Part shown: piece by piece, positions 1 through 21,785 of the stretch
Layout: every line of letters starts with the position of its first letter
Position numbering within the stretch: position 1 is the stretch's first letter
Source of the DNA: an uncultured Paracoccaceae bacterium
GTDB taxonomy: Bacteria > Pseudomonadota > Alphaproteobacteria > Rhodobacterales > Rhodobacteraceae
Length of the DNA stretch: 33,333 nt
NCBI GenBank assembly: GCA_947489705.1
Contig: CANLEQ010000034.1
Coordinates: forward strand, 1 to 33,333
Direction of reading: 5' to 3'
Translations under genes and position numbers: made by a program
Notes under the pieces: generated by a model
Seen by the model: only the letters and a program-made list of their open reading frames with translations
Databases searched by the model: none
What the model was told of the DNA's origin: nothing

Positions 1-14
1 GCCTTGCCGCGCGG

Positions 15-695
15 TCAACCCTGACGGATCACAGTGTTACGCTGTCCGCGCGGCATAATCCAAAACGCGGCATTATGCACAGCCTCGTGTCCGAAGGTTT
101 CATAGTAGCCTTGCGCCGTGTGAAAGGTGGCGATCGGCGGCATGTGGATCACGTCGCGAGCCGGGTGGTAGTAGGCTTGCGGCTCGTCTGTCGTCTCGAC
201 GGTCGCGCCCAGCTTGGCAAAGTATGCCTCGATTTCCGCTATCGGCTGAGTGCCGAGGTCGGCCGCCGCCTCGCGCTGGCGATAGTAGCTTTCCGGAAGG
301 CCCTCGATCTGGTCAGCGCAAAAGACGCGGTAGGTTTTCAGATAGCGACGCTTCACTTCCTCGCCGTCCTCGTTCTCCTTCTCGATGGTCCCATACTTCA
401 CGACCATGGTGGATTTTTCGCCCTTTCGGACACGCCCGCCCAGCTTCTGCGATTGAGGAAAAGTCATCCAGTAGGGCGAGGCGTAGCCCTTTTCGGCGGC
501 GGACAGCCACAGCATCAAGACGTTGATGCCGCGATACCCTTCGCCCGTGTGCCGGAGCGGGAACGGAGCGCCGCCGCCTTGGCCCGTCCACGGGCAACGC
601 CACGGCGGGGTGCCGGCCTCGATCGCGGCGATGATCTTGTTCGTAATCTCGGTTTCGGGATCGTACTTCGGGGCAGTGTTTTTGCGGGTTGCCAT
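15..695 (-). pseudogene. ardC: ArdC-like antirestriction protein, 3'-truncated
   Basis: Reading from the ATG at 695 gives 226 aa. The N-terminal part (about residues 10-130, with PPWRCPW, YRGINVLML and YWMTFPQ) matches the ArdC N-terminal ssDNA-binding domain. The C-terminal part reaches the zinc-metallopeptidase motif HEAVH near residue 203. ArdC proteins protect incoming plasmid DNA from restriction and normally run about 80-100 residues past this motif. Here the reading changes at once to an unrelated 20-residue tail and stops, so the gene appears cut by an insertion or recombination whose end lies at the left of the window. The start is chosen because GGAGGG sits about 10 bases upstream and the ArdC homology begins there; a longer in-frame reading runs back through the repeated leader and is not coding. 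Known: ArdC role. Seen: motif and abrupt loss of homology. Inferred: loss of peptidase function; the ssDNA-binding domain could still fold. Confidence 0.8.
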
Positions 696-696
696 A

Positions 697-1063
697 TCTA
701 GCCCTCCTTCGTGGTGGTGCCCTTTCCGGTCTTGGTGCCGAAAATTGGGGCGGGGTTTGGAGCGAGGACCGCGAAGCGGCCCTCTCTCCAAAGCCTGCCT
801 CCCGGCGAGGGCAGGAGGGGGACCCACGCAAGGTTGTCCGTAGGGGCGAAGGGGAGGGGGATCACCCGACCTGCACGGAGCCGAAGGCGGAGGAAGGACG
901 GGGAAACCCCTTCGCCCCGTCAAGCGGACGGCCTTGCGTGGGGGAACCAGCGGTTCCCTAGACGGACGCGCCCTGGCGCGGCCCAAGGATGCAGGGGGCG
1001 TTCGGAGCGTAGCGACGAATCCCCCCTGCCGGTGAGACCCCCGCGCGATCGCGCGGGGGTCTC
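697..1063 (-). repeat. 367-bp leader repeat, copy 1 (upstream of ardC)
   Basis: This stretch is identical, base for base as far as I can read, to 5432-5798 (constant offset 4735, no indels). It covers the Shine-Dalgarno of ardC and runs upstream to a perfect palindrome at 1034-1063. It is packed with hairpins: 756-762+764-767+769-772 pairs with 776-779+781-784+786-792, and 823-833, 836-840 and 843-854 pair with 932-942, 925-929 and 907-918. Smaller hairpins lie at 942-958 and around 970-985. It holds no credible gene. It may be a structured 5' leader RNA or a DNA element that acts when single-stranded. Confidence 0.95.
1034..1063. promoter_or_regulatory. Perfect 30-bp palindrome bounding leader repeat copy 1
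   Basis: GAGACCCCCGCGCGA is followed directly by its reverse complement, so all 30 bases are symmetric with no spacer. It forms the upstream edge of the leader repeat, and the two repeat copies stop matching exactly at its outer end. Possible roles are an operator, a terminator stem for transcripts entering from upstream (there is no T-tract), or a recombination boundary. The role is unknown. Confidence 0.75.
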
Positions 1064-1140
1064 ATCCCTCGGGTTTAATGGTCCGTGAAGGGTGCGGGGC
1101 TATGCTCTTTGGGACTCAACTTGACGGAGGGTCCCTGTCC

Positions 1141-1647
1141 ATGCCTGGCACCGCCCCAGACAAGCCGGATCAACGCAACAACCTCTGGCCGTCGATCCGC
1201 ACGCTCGAAGACGCCCGTAAAGAAACTTCTATGGCCTCGGCGGGCATCCTGATCGGGATTGTTGGCACCTTCGGCGTGGCGATCGGTCATCATCGTTCGA
1301 TCTGGCATGTTCTCTCGGCGGCGATCTCGCCTGAAGGTATGGACCCTGAACGGCTGGTTCCGACTCTTCTCGCCGGTCAAAGTGCGGCCTTCGTCATTTT
1401 TGCGGTGCAGCTCTGGCGGGGACCGGCCGTTTGGCCCGCGATCGTTGCCGTCTCGATCCTGGCCGCTGAGTTCATCACGCGGGTGGCCTTCGGAGCCGGT
1501 GCCCACATGATGTTTCTCTACATGGCGGCAACCGCCTATGCCGTGACCGGTCTCCGCGCGAGCTGGTTTATCCGGCGCCACGAAGGGACGCGGCGGACGT
1601 CCCAACACTACGGAGAAGCGAGCCACGCACACCGGGGCTCTTCATAA
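1141..1647 (+). CDS. Hypothetical four-TM inner-membrane protein
   Basis: 168 aa. The ATG at 1141 has GGAGG 11 bases upstream; an upstream in-frame start at 1078 has no such site. Four hydrophobic stretches are visible, beginning roughly at ASAGILIGIVGTFGVAIG, LLAGQSAAFVIFAV, VWPAIVAVSILAAEF and AHMMFLYMAATAYAVTG. The charged C-terminus is rich in Arg and His. I do not recognise a family. It is divergent from ardC, and its 5' region abuts the palindrome of the leader repeat, so the two could share a control region. It runs into the hairpin at 1646-1672. Confidence 0.6.
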   Translation: MPGTAPDKPDQRNNLWPSIRTLEDARKETSMASAGILIGIVGTFGVAIGHHRSIWHVLSAAISPEGMDPERLVPTLLAGQSAAFVIFAVQLWRGPAVWPAIVAVSILAAEFITRVAFGAGAHMMFLYMAATAYAVTGLRASWFIRRHEGTRRTSQHYGEASHAHRGSS

Positions 1648-1672
1648 AAAGCCCCCCGCCGAAGCGGGGGCC
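1646..1672 (-). terminator. Intrinsic terminator of the minus-strand parB-like operon
   Basis: Read on the minus strand, a GC-rich stem (GCCCCCGC pairing with GCGGGGGG, loop TTCG) is followed by five T. It lies about 165 bases downstream of the last minus-strand gene (stop at 1838). The same hairpin lies at the 3' end of the plus-strand membrane gene but has no T-tract in that direction. Confidence 0.7.
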
Positions 1673-1837
1673 AGTCATCCTTTCCACCACGAAAAGGAAA
1701 AGTCAGGGGTCACTCCGCCCCGAAAACCTCGTTCACGGAGTCCCTATTCAATTGTTGTGCGAAAGTCGTTCGGGATCACCTATGACATATCGGCTACCGT
1801 CATCCAGCACGAAGCCAACTGCTTTGGAGCCGTCTAC

Positions 1838-2356
1838 CTACTTTCGACGCGACACAACGCCATCAGCGGTGATCGCGTCGAGCTGGTATTGTGTGCGCCG
1901 CGTCAATTGCGACCCGTCCCCCGACACCATGATCTCGGCTTCGCAGCCGACGCGAAGGAAGCCTCCATCCGCCTCGATCATCGCGGTGCCTTCCATGCCT
2001 TCGGTCTGGCGCTGAACCGACCCGTCCGCGCCAACGACGATCCATGTCTCCCCGACCTTCACGCGCACCTGGTAGTGATCTGCGATGATCCCGGTCCAGC
2101 CAATCGCCTCGCTCTCGTCGCGGCGCAGAACGAGCTTGTCGGGGTGCATCTTGATCTGCACGTCCTGACCGTCACCGTCGCCTTTCACAACAACGAACGC
2201 CTCCTTGTCCTCGGGGTCATCGGGCAAGCGGGCCGTGGCATCGTTCGGTCGCCACAAGACAGGCTCGTCGCGTCGCTTCTTCTGCTTGTTCTTATGGAAC
2301 GCGATGAAAAGCTGCGCGGACTTCCACGCGACTTTCATTTTGGCAGGGACGGTCAT
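1838..2356 (-). CDS. Hypothetical protein, last gene of the ParB-like operon
   Basis: 172 aa starting MTVPAKMKVAW. The ATG overlaps the stop of the upstream 60-aa gene as ATGA, which suggests translational coupling; the longer in-frame reading upstream is discarded for that reason. A basic segment near residue 25 (KNKQKKRRDE) is followed by a beta-rich region with alternating charged and hydrophobic residues. No signal peptide or membrane segment is visible. I do not recognise a family. Its position in a run of minus-strand genes with the ParB-like protein suggests a shared role in early plasmid establishment, which is inference only. Confidence 0.6.
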   Translation of the reverse strand: MTVPAKMKVAWKSAQLFIAFHKNKQKKRRDEPVLWRPNDATARLPDDPEDKEAFVVVKGDGDGQDVQIKMHPDKLVLRRDESEAIGWTGIIADHYQVRVKVGETWIVVGADGSVQRQTEGMEGTAMIEADGGFLRVGCEAEIMVSGDGSQLTRRTQYQLDAITADGVVSRRK

Positions 2357-2535
2357 CGCAGGCTGCTTTCGGTGCCCTGCCGCGCGGCCGCCATCATGTC
2401 GGCTATCGTGATTTCCTTCCCGCGCATGATGATGCTGCCCGCGGAGCGGATCGTCACGGTTCCGTCCTCCTGGCGCGCGATCAGCTCGCCCCGAACTATC
2501 CCGATGGAATCGCGATGAATGGCTGCTGTCTTCAT
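2353..2535 (-). CDS. Hypothetical 60-aa protein
   Basis: It begins MKTAAIHRDSIGIVRGEL and looks like a small beta-sheet fold followed by a helix (EITIADMMAAARQ). It overlaps the following gene by ATGA at 2353-2356, which is the main support for both being real. The ribosome site is weak (GAGGA, about 7 bases upstream). No recognised domain. Confidence 0.5.
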   Translation of the reverse strand: MKTAAIHRDSIGIVRGELIARQEDGTVTIRSAGSIIMRGKEITIADMMAAARQGTESSLR

Positions 2536-2670
2536 GGGGCGTCCTCGCGGATGTGCTGGGTTCGGAGGCCGGATCGGCGGCGTTGGTGAGACAGGTGGAT
2601 TCTAGCATTTCGGGACTCTCTGCACCATGAATTGAGTAAGGTATGGGCTTTTCGCGCGCCCGTTGTGGTA

Positions 2671-2690
2671 GCCGGCGCCGGAGCGCCGGC
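2671..2690 (-). terminator. Strong GC hairpin between minus-strand small genes
   Basis: GCCGGCGC and GCGCCGGC form an 8-bp perfect stem with a four-base loop. It lies just downstream of the 56-aa gene (stop at 2702) on the minus strand. There is no clear T-tract, so it may be an attenuator or RNA-stabilising stem rather than a full terminator. Confidence 0.4.
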
Positions 2691-2701
2691 CTTCGAAGGC
2701 G

Positions 2702-2872
2702 TCAACCTCGGCGGCGGTAGATGCAGAAGCCCGTCGGGATTCGCGTGCCGCTCTCGGCGAAGGAAGCGACAGGCAAGTCACGCCAGCTTCCCGGCAAATC
2801 GCCGTGGTCGTAGTGCGCGCTCGCGGGCAATATGCGCAGGGCGCGGAAGGCGCGCCCTGCGGGTTGGGTCAT
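2702..2872 (-). CDS. Hypothetical 56-aa protein coupled to the ParB-like gene
   Basis: It starts MTQPAGRAFRAL. Its ATG overlaps the TGA of the ParB-like gene as ATGA (2869-2872), and its third codon positions are G/C-rich as in neighbouring genes. It contains an aromatic/glycine-rich centre and ends CIYRRRG. No recognised family. It is kept because of the tight overlap and coding-like composition; without homologues it could be a chance overlap. Confidence 0.45.
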   Translation of the reverse strand: MTQPAGRAFRALRILPASAHYDHGDLPGSWRDLPVASFAESGTRIPTGFCIYRRRG

Positions 2873-4719
2873 GCGAAGTGATCGGGCACCCATGCGTCAA
2901 TCTTGGTAATCTGCTCCGGGGTAGCGTCGAACGCACCGGGATTGGCAAATAGGCTTTCCAGCGTCTCAGCCTTCTCGCCTTTCTTCTTCTTCGCGAAAGA
3001 CGTGGCTCTCGGGCTTTGGGGTCCACACTCAAGAAGATCGTTCCAGAGGGCGTCCAGCCAGTCGCCCTTCATTCTCTTGAAGAGGTTTTCAGCGGTTGGC
3101 GTCCAGACGGAGCGCAAGCTGGTTTCGGCTTCTTTGTCGATCAGCTTGCCAAGTCCCTCGTCGGACACTGCCAAGAGCCGCGTCAGGTGCCGGATCAGTT
3201 CGGCGTCCCGATGCTCGCGGCCCTTCTTGCGGAACGCGCGGAAACCTTTCGCAAGATCGCTGCCCCACGGGTCCTTTGGGCTGGCGGCTTTCTTTGTTAG
3301 CCGCTCGTCCAGCGTGAAGCCGGTTTCTGTCTCGGGCATGTTCCGGGGGGGCTCGGCCCGCAACTCAAAGGCCCGACGGTAGCCCATCCCGCCCGACAAC
3401 TGCCACGCCAAAAGATCAAGGATCAGATCGGCGTGATCGACGGTGGCGTTCTGGCGCGCGCCAAGAGCGGCGGCGTTCAGGTCGTCTTGCAGCTTCGCGG
3501 AATAGGGCTGCTTAGGCGCGTCGTCCTGCTCCATCCGGTAGGGCTTCGGCAACACACCGGCTTCGATGGCGGCGGCACGACCCTCGCGGCGGACCAGTCC
3601 GCGCATCGGCTGCAGAGCGCCTTGGTTGTCCACGTAGGCGATGACGCCGGAATGAACCTTTTGGTCCTCGGTATAGGCTCCGTCCAACTTGGCGGTCAGG
3701 GTCTCGAACTCGGCTTCGGTGGCCTCGTCCAGCGCGTCGCCCTCGGCCCACTCGGCCAGCTCGTCATAGCGCCCGGCCTCGTCCTCGGTCAGATCACCCT
3801 CGACCTTGTAGAGCCGATCCAGCTTGTCCATGCGCTCCCAACCAACATAGGCGTCCTCGACAACCTCAACCCACTTCCAGCCCTCGGCCTCGATGGACGC
3901 TCCCGCCTTCGTCAGCGCATCGCGGAAAAGGTCATTGAGAAGCGCCGGATCGGCAAGAAACACATCTTCGCTGAACAGGTCGCGGGTGATCTTGCCGCCC
4001 GCCTGCTCGTAGGCGGTCAACCCGACGAACGACGCGCGGCGGTCGGTCGCGCGAATGGATTGCGGCTGAAGCTCCTGCTTAATCCGATGCTCGGAGATAG
4101 GACGGCCCCGGATGCCTTCGAGAACTTGCAAGCTCAACGCCTCGTCCTCGCTGACAGTGAAGGCGGCGGCGGCACCGATCGAGATTTCACCGGCCCGCAA
4201 GGCGTCGATCACCGGCGCGGGCAGGTTCGCCAGCGCGAGGCGGCGGCGCACATGCGCCTCGGTCTGGCCGAAGGCGCTGGCGATGGTCGGAACAGGGGCA
4301 CCCGTCGCGGCCATCTTGCCATAGGCACGGATTTCATCGGCGGGGTGAAGGTCCTGGCGCGCGGCGTTCTCGGCGCTGGCCCATGCGCGGGCCGTGGACT
4401 CGTCGGGCGCGATGCGGACGTGCGGCGCGACAATCTCGGGCCGCTCCCCGGCAAGATGGGGGTGGCTGTCAGCCAGCTTTTGCAAGGCGCGAAGGCGACG
4501 GCCCCCGGCGACGATCCCGACGCGACCCTCTGCATCACGGAATCCTGCGGGGTTCTGAATGAGGCCCAGAAGTCGGATGCTCTCGGCCAGAAGCGCGATC
4601 CCCTCGGGGTCGGCATCCTGTCGAGGGTTCAGATCGGATAGATAGAGGTCGGCCAGCGGCACGGCCTCGGTGGCGGGTGTGGCGGTTTCGGGGGCACGGA
4701 TGGCGGTTACGTTGGACAT
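2869..4719 (-). CDS. Large ParB/Srx-domain protein (leading-region type)
   Basis: 616 aa. Residues 20-80 form the ParB/Srx N-terminal domain, with LNPRQ near 30 and the box GGRRLRAL at 72-79. Residues 118-200 resemble the ParB helix-turn-helix region (ENAARQDLHPADEIRAY, then ASAFGQTEAHVRRRLALANLP). The remaining roughly 400 residues are acidic and mixed and are absent from ordinary partition ParBs of about 300 aa. No parA is adjacent. Known: large ParB-domain proteins of similar size (for example ORF653/YubM of F) sit in plasmid leading regions. I infer that this is such a protein rather than the partition ParB. The start is the ATG at 4719 with AAGGAA upstream. It is followed by small overlapping genes on the same strand. 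Confidence 0.85.
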   Translation of the reverse strand: MSNVTAIRAPETATPATEAVPLADLYLSDLNPRQDADPEGIALLAESIRLLGLIQNPAGFRDAEGRVGIVAGGRRLRALQKLADSHPHLAGERPEIVAPHVRIAPDESTARAWASAENAARQDLHPADEIRAYGKMAATGAPVPTIASAFGQTEAHVRRRLALANLPAPVIDALRAGEISIGAAAAFTVSEDEALSLQVLEGIRGRPISEHRIKQELQPQSIRATDRRASFVGLTAYEQAGGKITRDLFSEDVFLADPALLNDLFRDALTKAGASIEAEGWKWVEVVEDAYVGWERMDKLDRLYKVEGDLTEDEAGRYDELAEWAEGDALDEATEAEFETLTAKLDGAYTEDQKVHSGVIAYVDNQGALQPMRGLVRREGRAAAIEAGVLPKPYRMEQDDAPKQPYSAKLQDDLNAAALGARQNATVDHADLILDLLAWQLSGGMGYRRAFELRAEPPRNMPETETGFTLDERLTKKAASPKDPWGSDLAKGFRAFRKKGREHRDAELIRHLTRLLAVSDEGLGKLIDKEAETSLRSVWTPTAENLFKRMKGDWLDALWNDLLECGPQSPRATSFAKKKKGEKAETLESLFANPGAFDATPEQITKIDAWVPDHFA

Positions 4720-4805
4720 GAGATTTCCTTCGATTTTCGTGGTGTGGGTCGATTTGTTCGTGTTATTGGTGCCCCGGCCCTCGTTTAGGGGCCGAAGCGG
4801 GGGCC

Positions 4806-4925
4806 TTAGATGGCTCCGTGTTGCGTCAGGAAGCGGCGGGCGATCTTAGCGGAGAGGCCGCCCTTCCTGATTAGCGCCCACGCCTCAGCACGGCGCGCTG
4901 TCCAGTCGATTTCCAGTGTTCTCAC
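4806..4925 (-). CDS. Small basic helical protein with unusual start codon
   Basis: The frame ending at the TAA at 4806 encodes MRTLEIDWTARRAEAWALIRKG-type sequence (39 aa from the GTG at 4925, or 36 aa from the CTG at 4916), an amphipathic basic helix ending RRFLTQHGAI. A near-perfect Shine-Dalgarno, AAGGAGGTGA, lies here. It abuts the GTG, which is too close, but stands 8 bases from the CTG, which is the ideal distance. The frame closes upstream at a TGA with no ATG. An overlapping frame begins at an ATG near 4982 and encodes about 31 aa. The strong ribosome site between ParB-like and DUF3768 genes argues for a real gene; the start is unsettled. Confidence 0.45.
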   Translation of the reverse strand: MRTLEIDWTARRAEAWALIRKGGLSAKIARRFLTQHGAI

Positions 4926-5031
4926 CTCCTTCCCGATGCTCTGGGGTTTCGTGGCTGGCGGGGTCTTGCGCCCCGTTCATCTGCTCGACGGTCCAGCCTC
5001 GGGGCGAGCGGTTGCCTGCCCGCGACCGATC

Positions 5032-5430
5032 TCAATAATCCTCGGGGAACATCACGGTCAGGACGCGGCGGGTCTGCTCGACGTTGGCCGGGTCGTCCGA
5101 GCCGTATTCAAAGGCGGCGTCGTAGTAGTCGATCTTGAACCAGACGGCGCGGCCTTGAACCTCGACCTTGCCCATTGCCCGCTCGCCGTGGGGGTCAATG
5201 TCCTCGGGGAAGTCCTCGGGTGTCAGGGAGACGATCTTTCGCGCGGCCTCCATCACGAAGTCCGGCCCCATAGCGTTCACCGCCGCCGTCATCAGCCAGC
5301 GGCCCTCGGGCGCATCGGGGCCGCCTCGCCCGACCATCCGAAGGCGGAACGCATTGTTCTGGCCGGCAATTACCAAGGTCCGCAGGTGCGCCGCCGCTTC
5401 CTCTGTCGTCATTTCCATCAAGTTCGGCAT
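5032..5430 (-). CDS. DUF3768 family protein
   Basis: 132 aa from the ATG at 5430, which has GGAGGG 9-10 bases upstream inside the repeated leader. The C-terminal half carries the DUF3768 signature as I know it: WLMTAAVNAMGP near residue 55, IDPHGERAMG, WFKIDYYD and RVLTVMFPEDY at the end. The family is common on alphaproteobacterial plasmids and its function is not known to me. The gene sits upstream of the ParB-like operon and has the same 367-bp leader as ardC, so the two are probably expressed under the same control. Longer readings to 6003 run through the non-coding leader and are rejected. Confidence 0.85.
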   Translation of the reverse strand: MPNLMEMTTEEAAAHLRTLVIAGQNNAFRLRMVGRGGPDAPEGRWLMTAAVNAMGPDFVMEAARKIVSLTPEDFPEDIDPHGERAMGKVEVQGRAVWFKIDYYDAAFEYGSDDPANVEQTRRVLTVMFPEDY

Positions 5431-5431
5431 G

Positions 5432-5798
5432 TCTAGCCCTCCTTCGTGGTGGTGCCCTTTCCGGTCTTGGTGCCGAAAATTGGGGCGGGGTTTGGAGCGA
5501 GGACCGCGAAGCGGCCCTCTCTCCAAAGCCTGCCTCCCGGCGAGGGCAGGAGGGGGACCCACGCAAGGTTGTCCGTAGGGGCGAAGGGGAGGGGGATCAC
5601 CCGACCTGCACGGAGCCGAAGGCGGAGGAAGGACGGGGAAACCCCTTCGCCCCGTCAAGCGGACGGCCTTGCGTGGGGGAACCAGCGGTTCCCTAGACGG
5701 ACGCGCCCTGGCGCGGCCCAAGGATGCAGGGGGCGTTCGGAGCGTAGCGACGAATCCCCCCTGCCGGTGAGACCCCCGCGCGATCGCGCGGGGGTCTC
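5432..5798 (-). repeat. 367-bp leader repeat, copy 2 (upstream of DUF3768 gene)
   Basis: Identical to 697-1063, in the same orientation and placed identically relative to the start codon (one base differs between the ATG and the repeat edge). The two downstream genes are unrelated in sequence, so similarity stops exactly at the start codon. This means the unit that was copied is a leader/control element rather than a gene. Hairpin positions are those of copy 1 plus 4735; for example, the long stem pairs 5558-5589 with 5642-5677. Confidence 0.95.
5769..5798. promoter_or_regulatory. Perfect 30-bp palindrome bounding leader repeat copy 2
   Basis: Second copy of the 15+15 palindrome at the upstream edge of the leader repeat. 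Sequence beyond it differs entirely from the equivalent position beside copy 1. Confidence 0.75.
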
Positions 5799-6307
5799 GG
5801 TCTAAGGAAGACGGGAGCGGTCCTGCTCGGTCGATGAGGGTTGCGCGGGGGGCAGTCGGTTTACTATCTACCGCGTCCGCCCTCCCCCAAAGGGGGCGGT
5901 TGAGGTCGGGGGTCCCGAACAGGCAGCAGGCGGTTCCCCCGACCTCGTTTAGGAGTCCAGTTCGGCGGCACCGGCCTGCGCTGGAAAGACCCGGCCGTCG
6001 CACAAGCGACCGTCACCCGAATGGGCCGAGACTTTTCCCCTCTATCGACCATGCGGCCGCGGCGGACCCTGGCTCGCCGAGACAGGGTGCGCTGCACCTG
6101 GGCCGCAGGGAGAGGGAGGGGGGAAGGCTCGGGTCGAAGGCCGGTGAAGCCGGCCGAAGACTAGGGCGCGGTCCTGGGCGGGCGCGTCCTCGAGCTACAG
6201 CACGAGGGCGCGGACGATCAGGATGGGCCATGCCTCTTACTCGATTCCCGCCACACCAACCCCGTGATAGAGGAAGCGGCGCCAAAGAACGCTGAAAGGG
6301 ACTGACG
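5799..6307. other. Gene-poor stretch with inverted repeats
   Basis: No convincing gene is present: the reading frames here are Arg/Pro/Gly-rich with no recognisable motif. Visible structure is a hairpin near 5885-5899 (CCCCC, AAA, GGGGG) and an inverted repeat with perfect 11-base arms at 5902-5912 and 5936-5946. It may contain the promoter of the DUF3768/ParB-like block. Confidence 0.5.
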
Positions 6308-6694
6308 TTGCTGGATAAAAACCTTCGCGCCCGAATGAGTTTTTGGATCAAAGAAACGCGCCTCGGAGGCGGGCTCGATGACGCGTCCGATTGTCTGAAG
6401 GCCCAGCATAGCGCAGCGATGGTTTTCCGGTCAGCAAACCAAAGTGGGAAGTGGCCTGGCATCGGATCGCGAATTTTGTCGGCTTACATGGTCGCAGCCG
6501 CAAACACAGCGACGGGCGACGCCGAAGTGCTGGACGCAGACGCTGACCATATCAAACGGGTTTTCGGGTGTCTGGCGAAGAAGCTACCGGACGGCATCGC
6601 GCGGAAGGATCTGGAAAACGCCTCCACCATGAACGTGCGGCTACTCCGCTTGATCCTGACGTCCGTCTCGGCCATCGAGACGGATGACGATTGA
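6308..6694 (+). CDS. Hypothetical 128-aa protein
   Basis: Frame from a TTG at 6308 (AGGGA about 8 bases upstream), with an alternative ATG at 6335. Third positions are G/C-rich, as expected of a gene here. The product looks soluble and helical, with a run DADHIKRVFGCLAKKLPDGI in the middle and a C-terminal segment LLRLILTSVSAIETDDD. There is no signal peptide or membrane segment and I do not recognise the family. A hairpin without a T-tract follows at about 6718-6737. Confidence 0.55.
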   Translation: MLDKNLRARMSFWIKETRLGGGLDDASDCLKAQHSAAMVFRSANQSGKWPGIGSRILSAYMVAAANTATGDAEVLDADADHIKRVFGCLAKKLPDGIARKDLENASTMNVRLLRLILTSVSAIETDDD

Positions 6695-7211
6695 GACCGG
6701 GCAATCTCCGGCCGATGCCCCGCCCGAAGGCGGGGCGGACGCTCACGTGGGCGTTTCACGACAACGTCGCGTTGAGTATGCCCGGCTTAAACCGACTATC
6801 GCGCAAGGTGCAGCGGAAGCTCGCTTTGTCCGCGCTCCGGCCTTCCTAGCACGACGCGGCGGAAGTCCGGATCGAGCCCATTGTACAAACTGAGGACACG
6901 GGCGTACTGAGATCTGCCGAGAGTTCCGAATGAAGGTTCGGCCTGTCAAAGTCAGTTCATCGAACGCCGGTTTCCACTGCGACGGACTATCGGTAGGATG
7001 GTCGCTACCCAGGCCTTCCTGCCGAGCCGCTGCGTTCGCATGACTCGCTGTACCAATTTACGCCGCAACAACCGGAAGGCACTTTGTGCAGTGCTTCTGG
7101 TACCTTCGCAGATGCGCGAGCTCAGGACCAGGACCCTAGCAGTCTTCCCCGACGTATCTGCATCCTCGAGTTAGTGTGAAATTCCGGAGCAATATCATTG
7201 AAGAGGACAGC
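6695..7211. other. Intergenic region at the left edge of the defence island
   Basis: Apart from the GC hairpin at about 6718-6737 I see no gene, RNA or repeat. It marks the passage from the gene-poor stretch to the restriction-modification island and could hold the island boundary. Confidence 0.4.
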
Positions 7212-8177
7212 GTGAGTAAGGCTATCGGGCGTTCCGTCCGTCTCTTTCTCGTCGATGGCACGCCTACGGGTGTGACAACCGCAGAGATCATGAACTGGAC
7301 CGGGCATGTCCTGACCGGGTCACGGACGGGACTGCCGGCTTTCTTGAAGCGACCCGAACTCGACAGGACCGGGATCTACTTCCTGTTTGGTGCAGACCCA
7401 GAAGACCCGGAAGCACGGCGTCTTTATATAGGCGAAAGCGACAATGTCGGTAAACGGTTGGTGCAGCACAGCAAGGACGGCTCGAAGGATTTCTGGGAAC
7501 GCACCTGTGTCGTAACCAGCAAAGATCAGAACATCACCAAGGCCCATGCAAGATATCTGGAGGCGCGGCTGATCGGCATCGCCAATTCCGTGGGTAACGC
7601 CGTTCTAACGAACGGTACGACTCCACTGGCTCTTCCGCTGCCCGAAGCGGATGCTTCCGACATGGAGTATTTCATAGATCAGCTGCGTCTGGTTCTTCCC
7701 GTGCTCGGCTTCGACTTCCTTCGTAAATCTCCAAAAGCTTTTGAACCCACGGCCAAGATCGGGGCCGATGAAGTGGAGCCACAGGAAGTTCCCAGGTTCG
7801 ATATGCACAGCCAGAAGCACAAGGTTGAGGCCAGGGCTCGTGAAGTTGACGGCGAGTTTGTCGTGCTTCTGGGATCTATGGCAGTCCCGAACTGGACCAG
7901 CACGCCAGATCATAGTTACGCGAAACGCCACGCGCACCTTGTCGAGAAAGGTAAGCTCGTGCCCGATGGAAACGGTTTCCTTCGCTTCACCGAAGATGTC
8001 CCGTTCTCGAGCCCAAGCGCGGCGTCGGCCGTCATTCTTGGGCGGCCTGACAATGGTCGACTGTCTTGGCGGCTGAGCGGCAAGGGGGTGAACTACGGAG
8101 ATTGGCAGGCGCAGAAAGTGGCCGAGACGGCGGCGCTCGTGCTCCATGACGACGCTGAGTACAGGTCGGGGGGCTGA
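7212..8177 (+). CDS. GIY-YIG nuclease-fold protein with C-terminal DUF4357
   Basis: 321 aa from the GTG at 7212, which has GAGGA 7 bases upstream; a GTG at 7176 is less well placed. GIY at residues 54-56 and YIG at 72-74, followed by the conserved Arg in VGKRL, identify a GIY-YIG nuclease domain. The segment TKAHARYLEARLI likely supplies the catalytic Glu. The C-terminus (SPSAASAVILGRPDNGRLSW, then GKGVNYGDWQ) matches the DUF4357 domain that often accompanies this fold. Such proteins are common beside restriction-modification genes; the exact substrate is unknown. It is separated from the R-M operon by about 220 bases, so it is probably transcribed separately. Confidence 0.8.
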   Translation: MSKAIGRSVRLFLVDGTPTGVTTAEIMNWTGHVLTGSRTGLPAFLKRPELDRTGIYFLFGADPEDPEARRLYIGESDNVGKRLVQHSKDGSKDFWERTCVVTSKDQNITKAHARYLEARLIGIANSVGNAVLTNGTTPLALPLPEADASDMEYFIDQLRLVLPVLGFDFLRKSPKAFEPTAKIGADEVEPQEVPRFDMHSQKHKVEARAREVDGEFVVLLGSMAVPNWTSTPDHSYAKRHAHLVEKGKLVPDGNGFLRFTEDVPFSSPSAASAVILGRPDNGRLSWRLSGKGVNYGDWQAQKVAETAALVLHDDAEYRSGG

Positions 8178-8336
8178 CGTCTCAGCAGGATCGTACTCCT
8201 TCCAAGCATGTTGCATCATAACATACGGACGACTTGCGTCGCGGTGCGAACTGCCCTTCTCCAGGCCGCCTCTTCCTGATACCCCCTCCGTCTTGGGGAA
8301 AGGTTCCTCGAACACACAAAGTATAGTAGCCAAGAT

Positions 8337-8361
8337 CATCAAAATGATGCAGTTTGATGCA
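8337..8361. promoter_or_regulatory. Putative operator of the RHH-controlled R-M operon
   Basis: TGATGCA occurs at 8345-8351 and again at 8355-8361, a 10-bp period (one helical turn), and its inverse CATCA stands at 8337-8341. Short repeats on one face of the helix are typical binding sites of ribbon-helix-helix dimers, and an RHH gene starts 40 bases downstream. A -10-like TATAGT precedes it at about 8321-8326. Confidence 0.5.
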
Positions 8362-8400
8362 ATTAGCGGGAGGCGGAACGTGACGACTGAGGAGGACGGC

Positions 8401-8586
8401 ATGGCGAAGCGGCGTGTTACCGCCATGCTGGAAGAGGACGACATCTCCGCGCTCATGGCGATTGCGCGCTCCCGGAGAGTTTCTCTCGCGTGGGTGATCC
8501 GCGATGCGGTGCGTCTCTACCTGGACAATGGGCAGATGCCGGACAGCAATCTAGGGAAATCCTCTGACGCGCGACCGGGGCGATGA
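8401..8586 (+). CDS. Ribbon-helix-helix (CopG-type) regulator
   Basis: 61 aa from the ATG at 8401 (GGAGG 5-6 bases upstream); an in-frame GTG at 8380 also has a good ribosome site and would add 7 residues. RRVTAMLEEDDISALMAIARSR and VSLAWVIRDAVRLYL form the strand-helix-helix of the RHH/CopG family. The stop overlaps the methyltransferase start as ATGA. It therefore leads the restriction-modification operon and is probably its repressor, acting on the repeats at 8337-8361, in the manner of an R-M controller protein. An antitoxin role is the alternative, but no toxin gene follows. Confidence 0.75.
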   Translation: MAKRRVTAMLEEDDISALMAIARSRRVSLAWVIRDAVRLYLDNGQMPDSNLGKSSDARPGR

Positions 8587-10601
8587 TGGCAGTTGCATCC
8601 TCTCTCTCGGGACCCCATGGAGTTCCACGGCGTGGCTACGTTCTCTCTACCGCGGTCGAGAAGATCGCCGGAAGCGCCCGAGCGGTGGTCAGAGATCTGC
8701 AAGCCGCTTTTGAGAATGCCCCCAGCATTGCCGCGACCTACGTTCCGCTGAACGATGGCGAGATACCGGCCCGTGCAGCATGGCACGCCTTCTCAGCTTG
8801 GCTCCTCTGCCTTCTTTCCGACCCGCAGCGCACTTCTCTGTCTGAAGCGCAGCAATGGTATCTTGGGCGGGCGCTGACAGGAGCTGAGGAAGAGTTCTGG
8901 CAACGCGCAGATGTCGTGGCGACATCGGAGCTTGAGGAGATCGCCGGCAGGGAAGGCATTAGAGAACTGCTGCCCTATGTCCTCGAAAGCCACGGCCCCG
9001 GCTCCCGCCTCAGTGTCCTCCGTGATCCGTCTACCCAAATCGCGAGAACGACGAAGAAGGCGTCTGGCGTGTTTTACACCCCGCCGGACGTGGCAGAGTT
9101 CATGGCGCGGGGGGCACTGCGTGGCCGCGGTTTTCATCTGAAGGTTCTCGATCCGGCTGTCGGAACAGGCGTCTTTCTGAGGGCGGTTCTGGCCGAGCTG
9201 CGCAGCGCCGACAGCTCGGGTAACGCTTTCCGGCTCGCTCAGGACACACTCTTCGGATGCGACATCAACGCCCAAGCGCTCGATGGCGCCGCAACGGTTA
9301 TTCTTGCGGACGTGCTGCCTGACGCTCTCGCGATATTGTCCTCGCCGTATGAAGCTTGGCAGGCGCTACGCTCCAACCTCCGGCAATGTGACACTCTTTT
9401 GGTCGATCCGACGGCCGGCACAACTTCGGAAATGTCCCGTACTCAGCTAGCGACACTCTTTCCGTCTGCGCAGGAGGGATTTGACCTGATCATAGGCAAC
9501 CCGCCATATGCGGACCTAGGACTGCGGCGGGACATGGCCGACCTGGAAGCCCGTTTCCACTCGATCGCCGCCTTCCCGCGGAGCACAGCCGAGCTGTACA
9601 CGGTATTCGTGGAGCAGATGGTGCGGCTCACTGCCAGGACGGGCGCGGGTGCTCTGGTCCTGCCGCTCTCTCTGGCTTGCAATTCAGGTTCCCAATTTGA
9701 TGCCTGCCGACAGTTCATCGGGCAGCAGCCCGGTGAATGGAGATTTGCCTTCTTTGACCGACAGCCTCACGCGCTCTTCGGCGAGGACGTAAAGACTCGG
9801 AACTCCATCGTGTTCTGGGAGCGCCGGGACCGCGCCACTACAATCAGCACGGGGCCGCTCCGAAAGTGGCGGGGCAACGACCGGCAGGCGATGTTCGCCG
9901 GTATCGACTATACGCCAATCGCCGGAAATATAGCTCCCGGGATCCCGAAGCTGCACGGCCGTACTCAGGCCGCGGCGTGGGAAAGTTTGAGGGACCGGCA
10001 GGGAGCTCTGACGGACTTTACGTCAGAGATTACGCGGACCACGCTGAATGCCCTACCGGTCGCCGGTGCCAACGAGGTTTTTGTTGCGCCGACAGCCTAT
10101 AATTTTCTAGGCGTTGCGAGGCCGTGTCCTCTGGCAATGGACGAAGGAGAGATGCTGTCCACCAACCCGATGTTCCGGCTGGCCTGCGCCTCAAAAGAAG
10201 TGGCCGCCGCAGCATACGCGCTACTATCGAGCAATTTTGCGTTCTGGTGGTGGCACGTGACGGGCGATGGCTTTCACGTCAGTCAGCGCACGCTGCGCAC
10301 AATCCCGGCTGGAACTCTCGCCGATGCCGGTCCGGCCAGGTCTGCACTGACAGAGCTGGGTGAGGCGATGTGGGAGGCATCTGCCCGCTCACCGGTCCGC
10401 AGCCTCAACCGCGGACGGGTCTCATACACCTTCTCTGCCGCGGCAGCGCCGGGAATCCAGCAGCAGATTGACCGCCTTCTCGTCCGCACGCTCGACCTAC
10501 CAGAGACGTTCGCCGCCGAGCTGGCCAACTTTGCCGAAGCTATAACACAGGCGCGCCTGTTGTCGCCCTATAAGCAAATGACCGAGGAAGAACTGGCATG
10601 A
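8583..10601 (+). CDS. N6-adenine DNA methyltransferase (Eco57I-like/type II)
   Basis: 672 aa. Motif X is in SGVFYTPPDVAEFM (161-174), the SAM-binding motif I is DPAVGTG (190-196), motif II is GCDIN (225-229) and the catalytic motif IV is NPPY (306-309). The order is that of gamma-class N6-adenine enzymes. The C-terminal half (from about residue 440) probably holds the target recognition domain. The N-terminal 150 residues show no nuclease motif that I can recognise, so the protein looks like a methylase only, not a fused type IIG enzyme. The start overlaps the RHH stop, and the stop overlaps the next methyltransferase start (ATGA). It protects host sites from the PLD endonuclease two genes on. 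Confidence 0.88.
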   Translation: MMAVASSLSGPHGVPRRGYVLSTAVEKIAGSARAVVRDLQAAFENAPSIAATYVPLNDGEIPARAAWHAFSAWLLCLLSDPQRTSLSEAQQWYLGRALTGAEEEFWQRADVVATSELEEIAGREGIRELLPYVLESHGPGSRLSVLRDPSTQIARTTKKASGVFYTPPDVAEFMARGALRGRGFHLKVLDPAVGTGVFLRAVLAELRSADSSGNAFRLAQDTLFGCDINAQALDGAATVILADVLPDALAILSSPYEAWQALRSNLRQCDTLLVDPTAGTTSEMSRTQLATLFPSAQEGFDLIIGNPPYADLGLRRDMADLEARFHSIAAFPRSTAELYTVFVEQMVRLTARTGAGALVLPLSLACNSGSQFDACRQFIGQQPGEWRFAFFDRQPHALFGEDVKTRNSIVFWERRDRATTISTGPLRKWRGNDRQAMFAGIDYTPIAGNIAPGIPKLHGRTQAAAWESLRDRQGALTDFTSEITRTTLNALPVAGANEVFVAPTAYNFLGVARPCPLAMDEGEMLSTNPMFRLACASKEVAAAAYALLSSNFAFWWWHVTGDGFHVSQRTLRTIPAGTLADAGPARSALTELGEAMWEASARSPVRSLNRGRVSYTFSAAAAPGIQQQIDRLLVRTLDLPETFAAELANFAEAITQARLLSPYKQMTEEELA

Positions 10602-11524
10602 AGCAAATAAAGATCCCGGACGAGGTAAAGGAAAAGAGCAAACTGACCAAAGAAGAATGGAAGGAGTACACAAAGACGGTATGGTCCATAGCCAACAAGG
10701 CGCGCCCGGATCATCCCGCTGTATTCCCGGAGGAGATTCCGCACCGCCTCACGAAGCTGTTCAGCTTTTACGGCGAGACTGTTCTCGATCCCTTCGCGGG
10801 TACCGGCAGTACCGCGCGTGCAGCCATTCCCTTGGGCCGGCGCACCGTCTGCGTCGAGCAGAACCCCGAGTATGCGTCAGTCATCCAGTCGGAGTGCGCG
10901 AAACTGAGAAACGGGCATGGAGATGATTTTACACCTCTCGAGGTCGTGCGCGGCGACAGCCGCAACCTGAGCTTTCTGGACAATGACAGCGTAGGTCTAG
11001 TGGTGACCAGTCCGCCTTACTGGGACAAGGCCGACTACGGGACCGGGGAGGACAATCTCGGAAACATCCGCAGTTATGCTGGATTTTTGGAAAGTATCCG
11101 GCCGGTGTTCGAGGAGTGCTACCGTGTGCTGGAGCCCGGACGGAAGATCTGCGTCGTCACTGCCAATGTTAACCAGCATACCGACCATGGCCTGCTGACT
11201 TTCCCGCTTGCCACTGATTTCGGGGTAATGCTCCGCAATATCGGGTTCGTCATGGTGAACGAGATCATCTGGTCGAAAGACCGAACTGGCGGTAAGTGGG
11301 GCTCCTCCGGAGTGCAGCGTCCGATCTTTGGGAGCTATCCCTACCCGCCGAACTTCCTCTTCAAGAATATCCACGAGTATATCCTGATCTTTGCCAAACC
11401 TGCGCTGACCAAACGCAAGGGGCCGAAAGTAAAAGATTATGGTGAGCTGATGAAAGGGGTGGAGCACGGTTCACCGATCTCTCAGTCGGACGACGAACAC
11501 CGATTGCCAATGATCGAATACTAA
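10598..11524 (+). CDS. SPPYW-type DNA methyltransferase (N4-cytosine or N6-adenine)
   Basis: 308 aa. Motif I is DPFAGTG at 64-70 and motif IV is SPPYW at 138-142. A motif X-like segment, HPAVFPEEIPHRL, lies at 39-51. SPPY is usual for N4-cytosine or beta-type enzymes, but those normally carry motif IV first; here the order is X, I, IV. A late segment, NFLFKNIHEYILIFAK, resembles motif VIII surroundings of this family. It overlaps the upstream methyltransferase by ATGA, so the two are co-translated. Two methylases beside one endonuclease suggest an asymmetric recognition site with one enzyme per strand (inference). Confidence 0.87.
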   Translation: MKQIKIPDEVKEKSKLTKEEWKEYTKTVWSIANKARPDHPAVFPEEIPHRLTKLFSFYGETVLDPFAGTGSTARAAIPLGRRTVCVEQNPEYASVIQSECAKLRNGHGDDFTPLEVVRGDSRNLSFLDNDSVGLVVTSPPYWDKADYGTGEDNLGNIRSYAGFLESIRPVFEECYRVLEPGRKICVVTANVNQHTDHGLLTFPLATDFGVMLRNIGFVMVNEIIWSKDRTGGKWGSSGVQRPIFGSYPYPPNFLFKNIHEYILIFAKPALTKRKGPKVKDYGELMKGVEHGSPISQSDDEHRLPMIEY

Positions 11525-11533
11525 GAATTCATC

Positions 11534-12646
11534 ATGTTCTACAACCAGCCACTATCACTCCGCTTCGGAACCGAGCTCTTGAGGCACATCGACCATATGG
11601 CCGGTATAGAGCCATACTGGGATACCCTAGATATTGCCGTCGCATGGGTCCGCGCGTCCGGCATTTCCTATCTTGAGGAGAGCTTGCGCGGCTTTCTCCA
11701 CCATGGCGGCAGGCTCTGCTTTGTCGTCGGGATCGACCTGCACAACACGACGCGCGAAGGGCTTCAGGCTCTGGTTGATCTAGAGGACCATGGTGACTGC
11801 GAGACCTACGTTTATCACAACGAAGCCGGAAGCATCTTCCATCCGAAACTCTACCTCTTCCGCAACGAAGAAGAGGCGCGGCTGATTGTCGGATCGAACA
11901 ATCTGACGGCAGCCGGGCTTTACTCCAATATCGAGGCGGGTCTGCAGGTCGATACGTCCCTCGGGGATGCTGTCATTGAAGAGGCGGCAGATGCTCTTTC
12001 ATCCTGGAGGGATGCGACCGCCGGCATGGCTGTGAAGCTCGATCCTGAGTTCCTCAGCAGCCTTGTTGCAGAAGGTTACGTAGTCGAAGAAGCAGCCACT
12101 CGCGCTACCGAACGAGGTCGCCGTGCTGCCCGCGGGGCGCGTCCCGGTCGGAGACTATTTGGTTCACGGGCCTTCACGGCTCCTGCCCGCGCACCACGTC
12201 CTGGAAGCCCTGCTGCTCCGGAGCCGTCGACTGTACATCCCGCTGCGAGCCCGGCAGCTCCAGCACCTGAAGGAACAGCAATTTTGATGCGGCTCCGGAT
12301 GGCCCGCGGAACGCAGACACAGATTCCCTTCCGCGTCGCCAAGAACTTTTTCTCCGAAGTTACCGAGGTTCGCAGCGCCCACACCGGCGCCCGGCATGGC
12401 CTTCAACTTGCTACAGCGCACGGGCGCCAGAATACTACGAAACTGGAGATTCCCGAGCTGCGGGACTTCAGGGACGCATTCGCCAGGTTCGAAAAAACAC
12501 CCAACGGTGTGGTTTACGAGGTCTATGACGCCGGCACACCCAAAGGCGACCAGATCCGAGGAAGCCTAAATGATGGGTTCGACGACGGCTCGACGCAGAC
12601 CAGCATACGCGACGTCGCAAAGGCGACATGGTGGCGCTATATCTGA
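11534..12646 (+). CDS. PLD-family restriction endonuclease
   Basis: 370 aa. The phospholipase D-type half-site HPKLYLF (His103, Lys105) and GSNNLT (120-125) lie in an N-terminal domain of about 170 residues, as in BfiI/NgoFVII-like endonucleases that dimerise to form one metal-independent active site. Residues 190-247 are a low-complexity Arg then Pro/Ala linker. Residues 248-370 form a separate C-terminal domain with TQTQIPF, DDGST and KATWWR, probably for DNA recognition. That same domain occurs in the product at 12767-13876. It lies 10 bases after the second methyltransferase. The ribosome site before the ATG is weak, which may keep nuclease levels low relative to methylase (inference). 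Confidence 0.85.
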   Translation: MFYNQPLSLRFGTELLRHIDHMAGIEPYWDTLDIAVAWVRASGISYLEESLRGFLHHGGRLCFVVGIDLHNTTREGLQALVDLEDHGDCETYVYHNEAGSIFHPKLYLFRNEEEARLIVGSNNLTAAGLYSNIEAGLQVDTSLGDAVIEEAADALSSWRDATAGMAVKLDPEFLSSLVAEGYVVEEAATRATERGRRAARGARPGRRLFGSRAFTAPARAPRPGSPAAPEPSTVHPAASPAAPAPEGTAILMRLRMARGTQTQIPFRVAKNFFSEVTEVRSAHTGARHGLQLATAHGRQNTTKLEIPELRDFRDAFARFEKTPNGVVYEVYDAGTPKGDQIRGSLNDGFDDGSTQTSIRDVAKATWWRYI

Positions 12647-16792: not shown

Positions 16793-17304
16793 CAATTTCT
16801 CAGGCTCCGTCGATAGGCCGATGGGTGGGTGAAGTCCTCAAACTGCCAGACGCCGCGCCCCGCAGCTCGTGCTTCGTCGCGCTCGGCTTCGTAGGGCGAC
16901 TGTCCGTCATAGGCGAACGCATAGCCGTTCTGGACCAGCGCGCGATTGATTTCCCTTTGGCCGGTGTAGCAGACCGCGAGCGGACGGTCGTAGAAGTCGC
17001 GCTCGGTGCTCTCGCATCGCACGCTCCTGGGTCCGATCATGGATCGGAAATTGTCGCGCGCCCAAATCCCGCAGTCGATCTCGTGATTAGCGAAGCGCGC
17101 AGGCTGGCCCAATTCACAGGCGTCGATGCCGACAAGCCGTATATTCTCGCCGTCGATGTTCACGTTGTCTCCGTCGCGGATCGCGGGAAGGCCCTCGTAA
17201 ATAGTCACGGTCACAGCGTCGTTGGAAGCCTGGTCAGACAGGTTTTCGCACGTGGCGAGACCTCCGAAGGCCAGAAGTGCCAAAGCGGTGACGGATTTCA
17301 GCAT
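16792..17304 (-). CDS. Secreted thermonuclease-like (SNase fold) protein
   Basis: 170 aa. The N-terminus MLKSVTALALLAFGGLATC is a signal peptide, possibly a lipoprotein signal with Cys20. The nuclease-like domain has DGDNVNIDGENIRLVGIDACE and, further on, RDFYDRPLAVCY and INRALVQNGYAFAY, matching SNase homologues (usual pattern RLxGIDAPE with an Arg in the later strand). The usual Pro in DAPE is Cys here. The ATG overlaps the end of repC by 7 bases, so the two are translationally coupled. The role of a secreted nuclease downstream of a replication initiator is unclear. Earlier in-frame starts lie inside repC and are rejected. Confidence 0.8.
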   Translation of the reverse strand: MLKSVTALALLAFGGLATCENLSDQASNDAVTVTIYEGLPAIRDGDNVNIDGENIRLVGIDACELGQPARFANHEIDCGIWARDNFRSMIGPRSVRCESTERDFYDRPLAVCYTGQREINRALVQNGYAFAYDGQSPYEAERDEARAAGRGVWQFEDFTHPSAYRRSLRN

Positions 17305-18383
17305 GGGATCTTGTCCTCGTGCAGAAGGCCGAAAAGTGTTCGATGAAGGTTGGCGGTTCCGGTTTCTGCTCTCTCTGCCATTCTTCGGACCCATCCGCCG
17401 ACGGACTGGATTGTTCCGCCGCGTTCAGAGCTCTTGGCATCTGCCATCATCACGATGACCGCGGCTCCCTGCGCACCCACGGCGTTCTGTGCAAGCGACC
17501 ATGCGGACGGACTGACCCCGAGGGCTTTTGCTCGCTCGCAGGCGACGCCGGCGAGGATGTGCCACGACGGGCGGCCATATTGCTCCATCTCGATCCGCCA
17601 GTCATCGGGTGCGGCCATCATGGCTTGTCGGAGGCTTACATGCTCAAGCCCGCATGTCGGCCTCTGGCGCCACGTTTCCTCATGGCTCTGTTTCTCAGCA
17701 GGCATCGCCGGATTACAGGAATCTGATTGTTCTTGATGTGTAGTGTATGCCCGGTCGAAATCTTCCGGCTGACCGGCAAGTATTTTCCGGTCGGACGTGA
17801 TTGCGGCCAGCATTTCGTCGACCTTATCAACAATGGCTTCCAAGGCGCCCAAGCTCAGGTTCGCGATGTCTGCCGGAAGGTTGCTCCAGAGTTTTTCGAG
17901 GTGAGCCGGCATCTCTTCCGTGCGGAACGCTCGGTTCAGGGCTCCCCGTTTCTCGGAAATTTGGAAGCGGAGCCGGGTGCGCCGGGTGTAAACGTCCTGC
18001 TTTTGTGCCGCCCTCTCAGCCCATTCCTGGGCGCGGTCGAGTAGCGGCGATAGGTCGATCCCGGCAATATGGACAATTTCACCTGCTCGGTTGCGCTGGA
18101 CGTGCCGCCGACCGTTGGCAAGGCACCTGTTGATGACGAGACCTTGCTTCACCAGTTTGTCGATCTGGTAGCGGATGGTCCGGTCTTCGATGCCGAGCCT
18201 GTCTTTGAGGAGCTGCACCGACGCAGGGCTGACAGGACTTGGCGCGCCGTTGGGAATGTGACCGATCAGCAGGTCGATCAGGCTCTTCGATCCTGATCTC
18301 AACTTCAGGACGTACGCGGCGTCCTTCAGGGCTTGGTAAAGGATTTTCCGTTGGTCTACTCGGACCGGTTGTTCTTGCTTCAC
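17298..18383 (-). CDS. repC: RepC-family plasmid replication initiator
   Basis: 361 aa from a GTG at 18383 with GAGGA 6 bases upstream. The N-terminal third carries a winged-helix-type segment (LLKDRLGIEDRTIRYQIDKLVKQGLVINR) as in RepC. The C-terminal region with HILAGVACERAKALGVSPSAWSLAQNAVGAQGAAVIVMMADAK, then GGTIQSVGGWVRRMAERA, matches the RepC C-terminal helicase-independent domain seen in alphaproteobacterial replicons. No repA or repB precedes it, so this is a solo repC rather than a repABC operon. In this family the origin often lies within repC. A probable counter-transcript terminator lies upstream. Confidence 0.82.
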   Translation of the reverse strand: MKQEQPVRVDQRKILYQALKDAAYVLKLRSGSKSLIDLLIGHIPNGAPSPVSPASVQLLKDRLGIEDRTIRYQIDKLVKQGLVINRCLANGRRHVQRNRAGEIVHIAGIDLSPLLDRAQEWAERAAQKQDVYTRRTRLRFQISEKRGALNRAFRTEEMPAHLEKLWSNLPADIANLSLGALEAIVDKVDEMLAAITSDRKILAGQPEDFDRAYTTHQEQSDSCNPAMPAEKQSHEETWRQRPTCGLEHVSLRQAMMAAPDDWRIEMEQYGRPSWHILAGVACERAKALGVSPSAWSLAQNAVGAQGAAVIVMMADAKSSERGGTIQSVGGWVRRMAERAETGTANLHRTLFGLLHEDKIPC

Positions 18384-21720: not shown

Positions 21721-21785
21721 GGCGCTGCGGACCTTCGTTTCGTCTCGTTTCAGAGTCGTTCGTAGTAGGACGTGATTTAGTTAAC
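21595..21785 (-). repeat. Inverted-repeat partner of 18871-19055
   Basis: The promoter/upstream region and first about 60 codons of the RcgA-like gene, repeated in inverted, degenerate form 2.5 kb away. The best-conserved parts are GTTAACTAAATCACGTC-TACTACGAA and the KYFVPP coding stretch. Confidence 0.75.

Follow-up and report, generated by a model that had tools for sequence, protein, structure and literature searches.

The 33,333-base window analysed here, which is an entire contig from an uncultured Paracoccaceae bacterium, carries two identical copies of a 367-bp hairpin-rich element, one directly before an antirestriction gene (ardC) and one directly before a gene of the DUF3768 family. 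We consider it probable that the contig is part of a MOBP conjugative plasmid and that the element controls leading-region genes by acting as folded DNA of the transferred strand, most likely as a single-stranded promoter. Single-stranded promoters that serve anti-defence genes at entry are already established in F-type enterobacterial plasmids, where they are called Frpo. What would be new is that leading regions of alphaproteobacterial plasmids, mostly with MOBP-type relaxases, carry an element that is similar in structure but in whose sequence no resemblance to Frpo could be detected. The element would thus resemble Frpo in the way it works and fall outside the Frpo type in its sequence and in its lack of recognizable sigma-70 boxes.

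Sequence comparison bore out the claim of the initial annotation that two identical 367-bp copies lie in the same orientation (697–1063 and 5432–5798); they form a direct repeat with a spacing of 4735. Each copy contains the ribosome-binding site (RBS) GAAGGAGGG and stops one base short of a minus-strand ATG, that of ardC at 693–695 or that of the DUF3768 gene at 5428–5430, and the single base in between differs (on the plus strand, A at 696 and G at 5431). Pfam matches confirmed the identities of these two unrelated genes as well as that of the large protein encoded between the copies, which has 616 aa and both HTH_ParB and ParB_N domains. The strong hairpins that had been noted are also real by calculation. 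Folded as DNA, the plus strand from 693 to 1064 reached -123.6 kcal/mol (z -9.3), and the minus strand of the same stretch folded as RNA gave a z of -7.8; none of 100 shuffles matched either fold. A conserved core consists of T.TCCCC, an inner hairpin and CGGGTGATCCCCCTCC atop a long outer stem, and a short hairpin, GGGAACCGCCGGTTCCC, is also well conserved among copies, together with close variants. A third copy was sought across the bacterium's own genome and was not found, the only matches being those of the terminal palindrome; as an exact pattern, this palindrome had no match in viral contigs.

Relatives of the element occur on many plasmids. A blastn search found matches at 186 places in 86 plasmid records from Rhodobacterales, sphingomonads and others, a figure that includes partial and palindrome-only matches. 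Stretches of ten plasmid records were examined, and a profile built on these and the window recovered 23 long copies that score 120 bits or more. Thioclava p4 accounts for six of these. On visual inspection, an RBS-like stretch followed by a start codon closes every one of the 23. As many as six elements occur per plasmid, and the copies are modular, with whole stems swapped for unrelated stems while the pairing is retained. A shorter core is common to sphingomonads, Geminicoccaceae and Cereibacter, in the order outer stem, T.TCCCC, inner hairpin, CGGGYGATCCCCCTCC and outer stem. Searched as a pattern in GTDB genomes, the core was found in at least 120 stretches; the 80 listed are mostly from several orders of Alphaproteobacteria, with Thiothrix also present and some likely chance matches. 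It was also found in one viral contig. The reversed pattern had 0 matches in the 40 genomes that carry 78 forward matches. In evenly drawn genomes the strict pattern is rare, occurring in 4 of 190 drawn at the level of the class and in 3 of 200 at that of the phylum, own genome included, with none for the reversed control in either set.

In Thiothrix, a gammaproteobacterial genus, the core occurs in plasmid pTfr153 (L094) and, as three copies on one strand, in a contig of a metagenome-assembled genome (L053, G027:C62); in the latter, both copies within 40 kb face away from the contig's only relaxase match, which is below the Pfam cut-off. A variant core, here called type B, combines GGCCGTGTCCTC, a hairpin and GGGCCGCACCA, carried on a stem that contains A+T (GAAGCAAAATCGACAG or the like), and sits upstream of genes; it was found with an ad hoc fuzzy pattern and offers few informative mismatches. 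Finally, at locus L015 the ParB, ArdC and DUF3768 genes are preceded by leaders of yet another, third family, whose stem is similar.

The outer stem of the core is maintained by compensatory change. Across all 105 unique stems, taken without selection, positions 3–10 were paired in 78% of cases versus 35% with shuffled 3′ arms (maximum 41%), and up to four Watson-Crick types occurred at one position. The imperfect pairs indicate the strand on which this structure is selected. Where an mRNA has a G-U pair, its template has an A.C mismatch, and vice versa, such that a coding-strand A-C is a G.T on the template. For the strand counts, 135 of 145 core matches were used; the ten dropped had fewer than five Watson-Crick pairs of eight, several being apparent chance matches. 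Among the 95 unique stems, read in a fixed register, coding-strand A-C (template G.T) was found 24 times versus 4 for G-U (p 1.8e-4), or 16:4 when mismatches were counted once per cluster (p 0.012; 129 unique sequences). For 1x1 mismatches of the outer stem in Watson-Crick-only folds, the ratio was 62:6 with the coding strand folded (by cluster 40:6, p 3e-7) and 52:12 with the other strand folded (by cluster 36:10, p 1.6e-4). Counts were smaller in the inner core, at 33:6 and 26:3, and in the 3′ hairpins, at 18:1 and 6:2. With DNA parameters, moreover, the transferred strand folded more stably than its complement in 124 of 129 elements and in all 23 long copies.

Two controls help to interpret this bias. 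Eight Frpo-type segments from five enterobacterial plasmids gave 12:1 and 11:2, and the transferred strand was the more stable in 8 of 8. These segments are leaders upstream of ssb or their repeats, identified by position and repetition rather than by deposited Frpo sequence; they are interrelated, one of them is cut short, and for two the match to the first extends over just 80 bp. For RNA, 22 cobalamin riboswitches gave 8:7 and 9:11, with the complement more stable in 8 of 22. Because the template G.T bias matches that of the Frpo-type segments and is absent from the riboswitches, the element behaves like Frpo and unlike an RNA leader. The tolerance of G-U and avoidance of A-C on the mRNA that would mark a riboswitch is not what the three outer-stem counts (24 vs 4, 62:6 and 52:12) display. 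The earlier suggestion that the leaders are active on entry as single strands gains from this only an indirect support, namely structural selection on the transferred strand as in Frpo-type leaders.

The element also tends to lie close upstream of genes. A start codon with an RBS lay within 300 nt downstream of the core in 115 of the 124 copies with enough flank, versus 35 on the opposite side, where cores less than 450 nt from the locus start could not be scored. The distance from core to start codon had a median of 104 nt and quartiles of 97–152. Downstream proteins were scanned for 86 of the 107 cases with complete open reading frames (the window's own two included, the L010–L020 records omitted), and their domain matches included ArdcN (24), DUF932 (14), DUF3768 (10), ArdA (6), N6_N4_Mtase (5) and ParB_N (4). 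In the named plasmids, the elements occur in a block with some of the genes for ArdC, SSB, a large ParB, DUF3768, DUF3560 or DUF4942. ArdC of plasmid R388 is described as needed in the recipient (PMC7213743). Since 14 of the 86 cases have DUF932 after the core, as in L023, L025 and L026, DUF932 and DUF3768 are candidates for an anti-defence or establishment function.

A further line of evidence is orientation relative to the relaxase. Where a copy lay within 40 kb of a relaxase on its contig, it pointed to the nearest one in 36 of 41 cases (p 8e-7). By contig, 29 had all copies towards the relaxase, 2 had all away and 2 were mixed, and 13 of the 15 multi-copy contigs had all copies on one strand. 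This count covered 40 genomes (40 of the first 55 loci, the other 15 having been omitted partly as apparent chance matches or distant taxa) and relaxases of three Pfam families. All 78 core places were entered, of which 31 are on contigs that lack a relaxase match and 6 are separated from one by over 40 kb, and relaxase places were entered only where the contig could be common with a core. Among the plasmid records, copies and cores in seven all point towards the relaxase, and two further stretches hold no relaxase. The order relaxase, ParA, ardC, elements recurs in Thioclava p4 and in plasmids of P. pseudonitzschiae and P. aestuarii. This gene order would place the block beside the origin of transfer (oriT), opposite the relaxase and the type IV secretion system (T4SS) genes and thus in the part that enters first, as in a conjugative leading region, and, except for the copies that face away, the transferred strand would serve as template for the anti-defence or establishment genes. 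The proposal of a leading region is thus supported by gene order in the named plasmids, by orientation and by the downstream gene families; a scatter of copies without relation to oriT or anti-defence genes, which had been named in advance as evidence to the contrary, was not what was seen, five exceptions among the 41 copies apart.

Further hints as to polarity come from the likely surroundings of the window. Contig C67 of the same genome carries the 3′ part of an ardC gene, a VirC1/ParA-like gene, VirD1/MobC, a relaxase and a VirD4-type coupling gene. Its gene order matches that left of ardC in Thioclava p4, which makes it the strongest candidate for the contig that adjoins the window on the left. 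A nic-like motif, TATCCTGCC, which resembles the known MOBP nic consensus, occurs in three of the seven regions searched, each time on the strand predicted to be transferred and never on the other. Its places are between the ParA-like gene and MobC in C67 and upstream of MobC in Acuticoccus and Sphingopyxis plasmids; by eye, it follows an inverted repeat in C67 and in the Acuticoccus plasmid. Since the copies point to the relaxase and the nic-like motifs sit on that strand, the plus strand of the window is most likely the one that is transferred and from which ardC and the DUF3768 gene would be transcribed. The initial annotation had tentatively made the same assignment of the transferred strand, and this arrangement, along with the motif in three of the seven regions, speaks for it.

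Taken together, these observations suggest the following course of events. Transfer would begin at an oriT left of ardC, and the plus strand would enter the recipient with its 5′ end leading. While its complement is still to be synthesized, each element could fold into a long hairpin with the internal-loop core, accompanied by smaller hairpins, and the folded DNA would offer RNA polymerase a local double-stranded start site. Transcription would then run towards oriT and, by way of the RBS, into ardC or the DUF3768 gene, such that anti-restriction and establishment proteins could be made in the first minutes after entry. Synthesis of the duplex would erase the hairpins and turn the leaders off. 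The repeats, the structure, its compensation and strand bias, the location just ahead of start codons, the classes of gene that follow and the prevailing relaxase-facing orientation were obtained directly. For this plasmid, the position of oriT, transcription, its timing and the switch-off are what we infer from them. A broader form of the proposal, to which we give somewhat less than even weight, is that the element represents a second, independently evolved class of single-stranded promoters, which plasmids would have carried into several alphaproteobacterial orders and into Thiothrix. Such promoters might be recognized through the conserved internal-loop core of the folded transferred strand and not through sigma-70 boxes, and the element might serve as an exchangeable, RBS-bearing leader cassette placed before whichever anti-defence gene is needed first.

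A number of findings weigh against the single-stranded promoter. Five of the 41 copies face away from the nearest relaxase, and two of these five rest on a relaxase match below the Pfam cut-off. The single core of the MOBF plasmid pORIO3 of Cereibacter (L020 34120 +) points away from its relaxase. The same is true of the type-B core, which three plasmids carry next to ParA; so placed, it would have a template other than the transferred strand. The away-facing copies may be read on other occasions or lie beside another oriT, or the element may also work as duplex or RNA. As to polarity, the nic-like motif was absent from both strands of four of the seven regions searched. A wider search near relaxases in 33 stretches found loose motifs 15 times on the predicted strand and 21 times on the other; outside open reading frames of at least 200 codons the ratio was 3:1, and outside those of at least 120 codons 1:0 (31 stretches). 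Because these wider searches gave no clear nic polarity, the polarity claim rests on the three regions of seven. In the 5′ hairpins, the strand bias is weak or reversed (5:2 and 1:4). The bias itself could stem partly from cytosine deamination of the transferred strand rather than from selection, which would likewise imply a single-stranded phase, and it fits other single-stranded roles as well as that of a promoter. Lastly, a sigma-70 consensus scan of window positions 1–7000 gave a single site (5012, outside the element) versus 0.9 expected, although alphaproteobacterial promoters may differ. The earlier remark that sigma70-like boxes are missing stands, as nothing in these 7000 positions goes beyond chance, and when the 3′ arms of the stems were inspected by eye, with no statistics, no -35/-10 pair at a constant spacing was found.

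Other explanations must be weighed against a promoter. One is that the folded transferred strand serves in priming or protection, loading a primase or polymerase that begins second-strand synthesis, or barring SSB or nucleases, with its place before genes being secondary. The evidence on the strand of selection fits this equally well, genes with toprim domains occur in the same region of sphingomonad and Geminicoccaceae records, and Frpo, according to work by Masai and Arai from 1997, reportedly also yields primer RNA. However, priming needs neither the tight distance to a start codon and RBS found in 115 of 124 copies nor several copies that each precede a different gene, and we regard it as unlikely to be the principal function. 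A structured 5′ leader on the minus-strand mRNA, whether riboswitch-like, protein-bound or acting through stability or antitermination, seems less likely still. The included RBS, the strong RNA fold (z -7.8), the occurrence before unrelated genes and the copies that face away from oriT would all suit such a leader. On the other hand, the excess of template G.T over mRNA G-U (24:4, and 40:6 by cluster) runs opposite to selection on RNA, a bias that the riboswitch control lacks, and an Rfam 15 scan of the element found no family at gathering score, the matches obtained at permissive E-values being far below it.

The least probable explanation, which we would hold to be a very long shot, is an ordinary double-stranded regulatory repeat, that is, a cruciform or protein site through which leading genes are jointly controlled in donor and recipient. 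Perfect palindromes (1034–1064) and the conserved short hairpin could indeed be protein sites. A duplex site, however, predicts no strand bias in imperfect pairs, and the observed bias is strong; moreover, the sequence of the stems varies freely while their pairing is kept.

The precedent for a single-stranded promoter in F is experimental (PMC9849209, PMC11541004). When Frpo1 or Frpo2 of F was deleted, early expression in transconjugants was not seen, conversion to duplex switches the leading genes off, and the -10 and -35 boxes are reported to form anew in Frpo (PMC9849209). Frpo1 and Frpo2 share 92% identity and lie about 5 kb from each other (PMC9849209), and the copies in the window are identical and 4.7 kb apart. 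Like Frpo1 and Frpo2 and the ssi sequences of ColIb-P9, the element is a leading-region repeat of 300–400 bp present in several same-orientation copies a few kb apart, and a stable hairpin, long and on the transferred strand, lies upstream of leading genes, with the same kind of wobble bias and stability advantage. The neighbours are also alike, with DUF3560, methyltransferase, SSB, large ParB and antirestriction genes in both settings. The ParB-family proteins are in fact homologous, as the 616-aa protein of the window and a 652-aa protein from the leading region of an IncK2/Z plasmid share 29% identity over 631 aligned columns (E 1e-29). Unlike Frpo and ssi, the element is built around a G+C-rich core whose internal loop is conserved, its hosts are mostly Alphaproteobacteria, and while Frpo activity has been shown by experiment, the alphaproteobacterial element is known here from sequence alone. 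Homology with Frpo was considered and rejected, as nhmmer with the profile found nothing at E 10 in five E. coli-type leading regions and blastn gave short chance-level matches, the best at E 0.04 among the matches listed.

Frpo-like candidates have been collected by Samuel et al. (2024, Nature, PMC11541004) by similarity to Frpo or ssi or by a -35/-10 consensus. The present element is like those candidates in being structured, in lying upstream of genes of leading-region anti-defence islands and in having these genes on the transferred strand. It differs from them in that it has neither the similarity nor the consensus boxes by which they were found, and searches of that kind would consequently miss the whole family; the passages of that paper on Frpo-like candidates do not mention the element. 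With Rfam leaders and riboswitches it shares a long structured region just upstream of the start codon that is common to unrelated genes, and it differs from them in its lack of a gathering-score match and in a strand bias opposite to selection on RNA. In the open-access literature, of which coverage was partial and which excludes most subscription papers and all bioRxiv preprints, no description of such an element in Alphaproteobacteria was found.

If the single-stranded promoter is correct, expression from single-stranded DNA at the time of entry would have arisen at least twice or be very old. The conserved core would then also provide a handle for locating leading regions, oriT polarity and unknown anti-defence genes, such as DUF932 and DUF3768, in many plasmids. 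More generally, the asymmetry of wobble pairs, with G.T on one strand set against G-U on the other, offers a way of telling single-stranded DNA function from RNA function by sequence only. The features of the window and the type-B cores are collected in Table 1.

Table 1. Coordinates of the element copies, neighbouring genes and type-B cores (window positions unless a locus is named).
Feature	Position	Strand	Remarks
Mobile-element end, repeated	1–77		Interrupts ardC; in contig C11, three tyrosine recombinases adjoin the same element
ardC	15–695	-	Pfam ArdcN 4e-39 and first part of zincin domain; 3′ end truncated
Element copy 1 (ardC leader)	697–1063	-	367 bp; plus strand putatively transferred and folded, transcription would run on minus
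Conserved core, copy 1	853–904	-	T.TCCCC, inner hairpin and second motif atop long outer stem
Perfect hairpin, 14-bp stem	1034–1064		Far end of copy 1; counterpart at 5768–5798
Large ParB-domain protein, 616 aa	2869–4719	-	HTH_ParB 3e-6, ParB_N 5.5e-6; between the element copies
DUF3768 gene	5032–5430	-	Pfam match 7e-24
Element copy 2 (DUF3768 leader)	5432–5798	-	Identical to copy 1
Conserved core, copy 2	5588–5639	-	
RepC gene	17298–18383		
VirB-type T4SS genes	22181–32786	+	Pfam SLT, TrbC, VirB3, CagE_TrbE_VirB, T4SS, TrbL, VirB8, CagX, TrbI, T2SSE
Type-B core, L011	16676	+	Beside ParA gene
Type-B core, L013	14032	-	Beside ParA gene
Type-B core, L016	21847	+	Beside ParA gene

The 3′ end of ardC has been lost to a mobile-element end at about 1–77. 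The element in question, seen at 2437–5731 of contig C11 (L183), has three adjacent tyrosine recombinases and is presumably RIT-like. It splits ardC-type genes at about one place in the zincin domain, which in the window is just after HEAVH. N-terminal halves of the interrupted genes are found in the window and C11, and C-terminal halves in C67 and C76, with C60 added by its sequence match. The notion that C67 is the only possible left neighbour was dropped, since the same mobile element also occurs in C11, C76 and, again by match only, C60.

Further into the window, positions 8146–12646 encode a ribbon-helix-helix protein, an Eco57I/N6 methylase, an N6_N4 methylase and a PLD-type nuclease (NgoFVII-like, below the cut-off), which likely form a restriction-modification cluster. 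A 100-nt inverted repeat, 83% complementary, has its arms at 18871–18970 and 21686–21785 and flanks two minus-strand open reading frames, 19113–20198 and 20110–21720, neither of which has a Pfam match at E 0.001.

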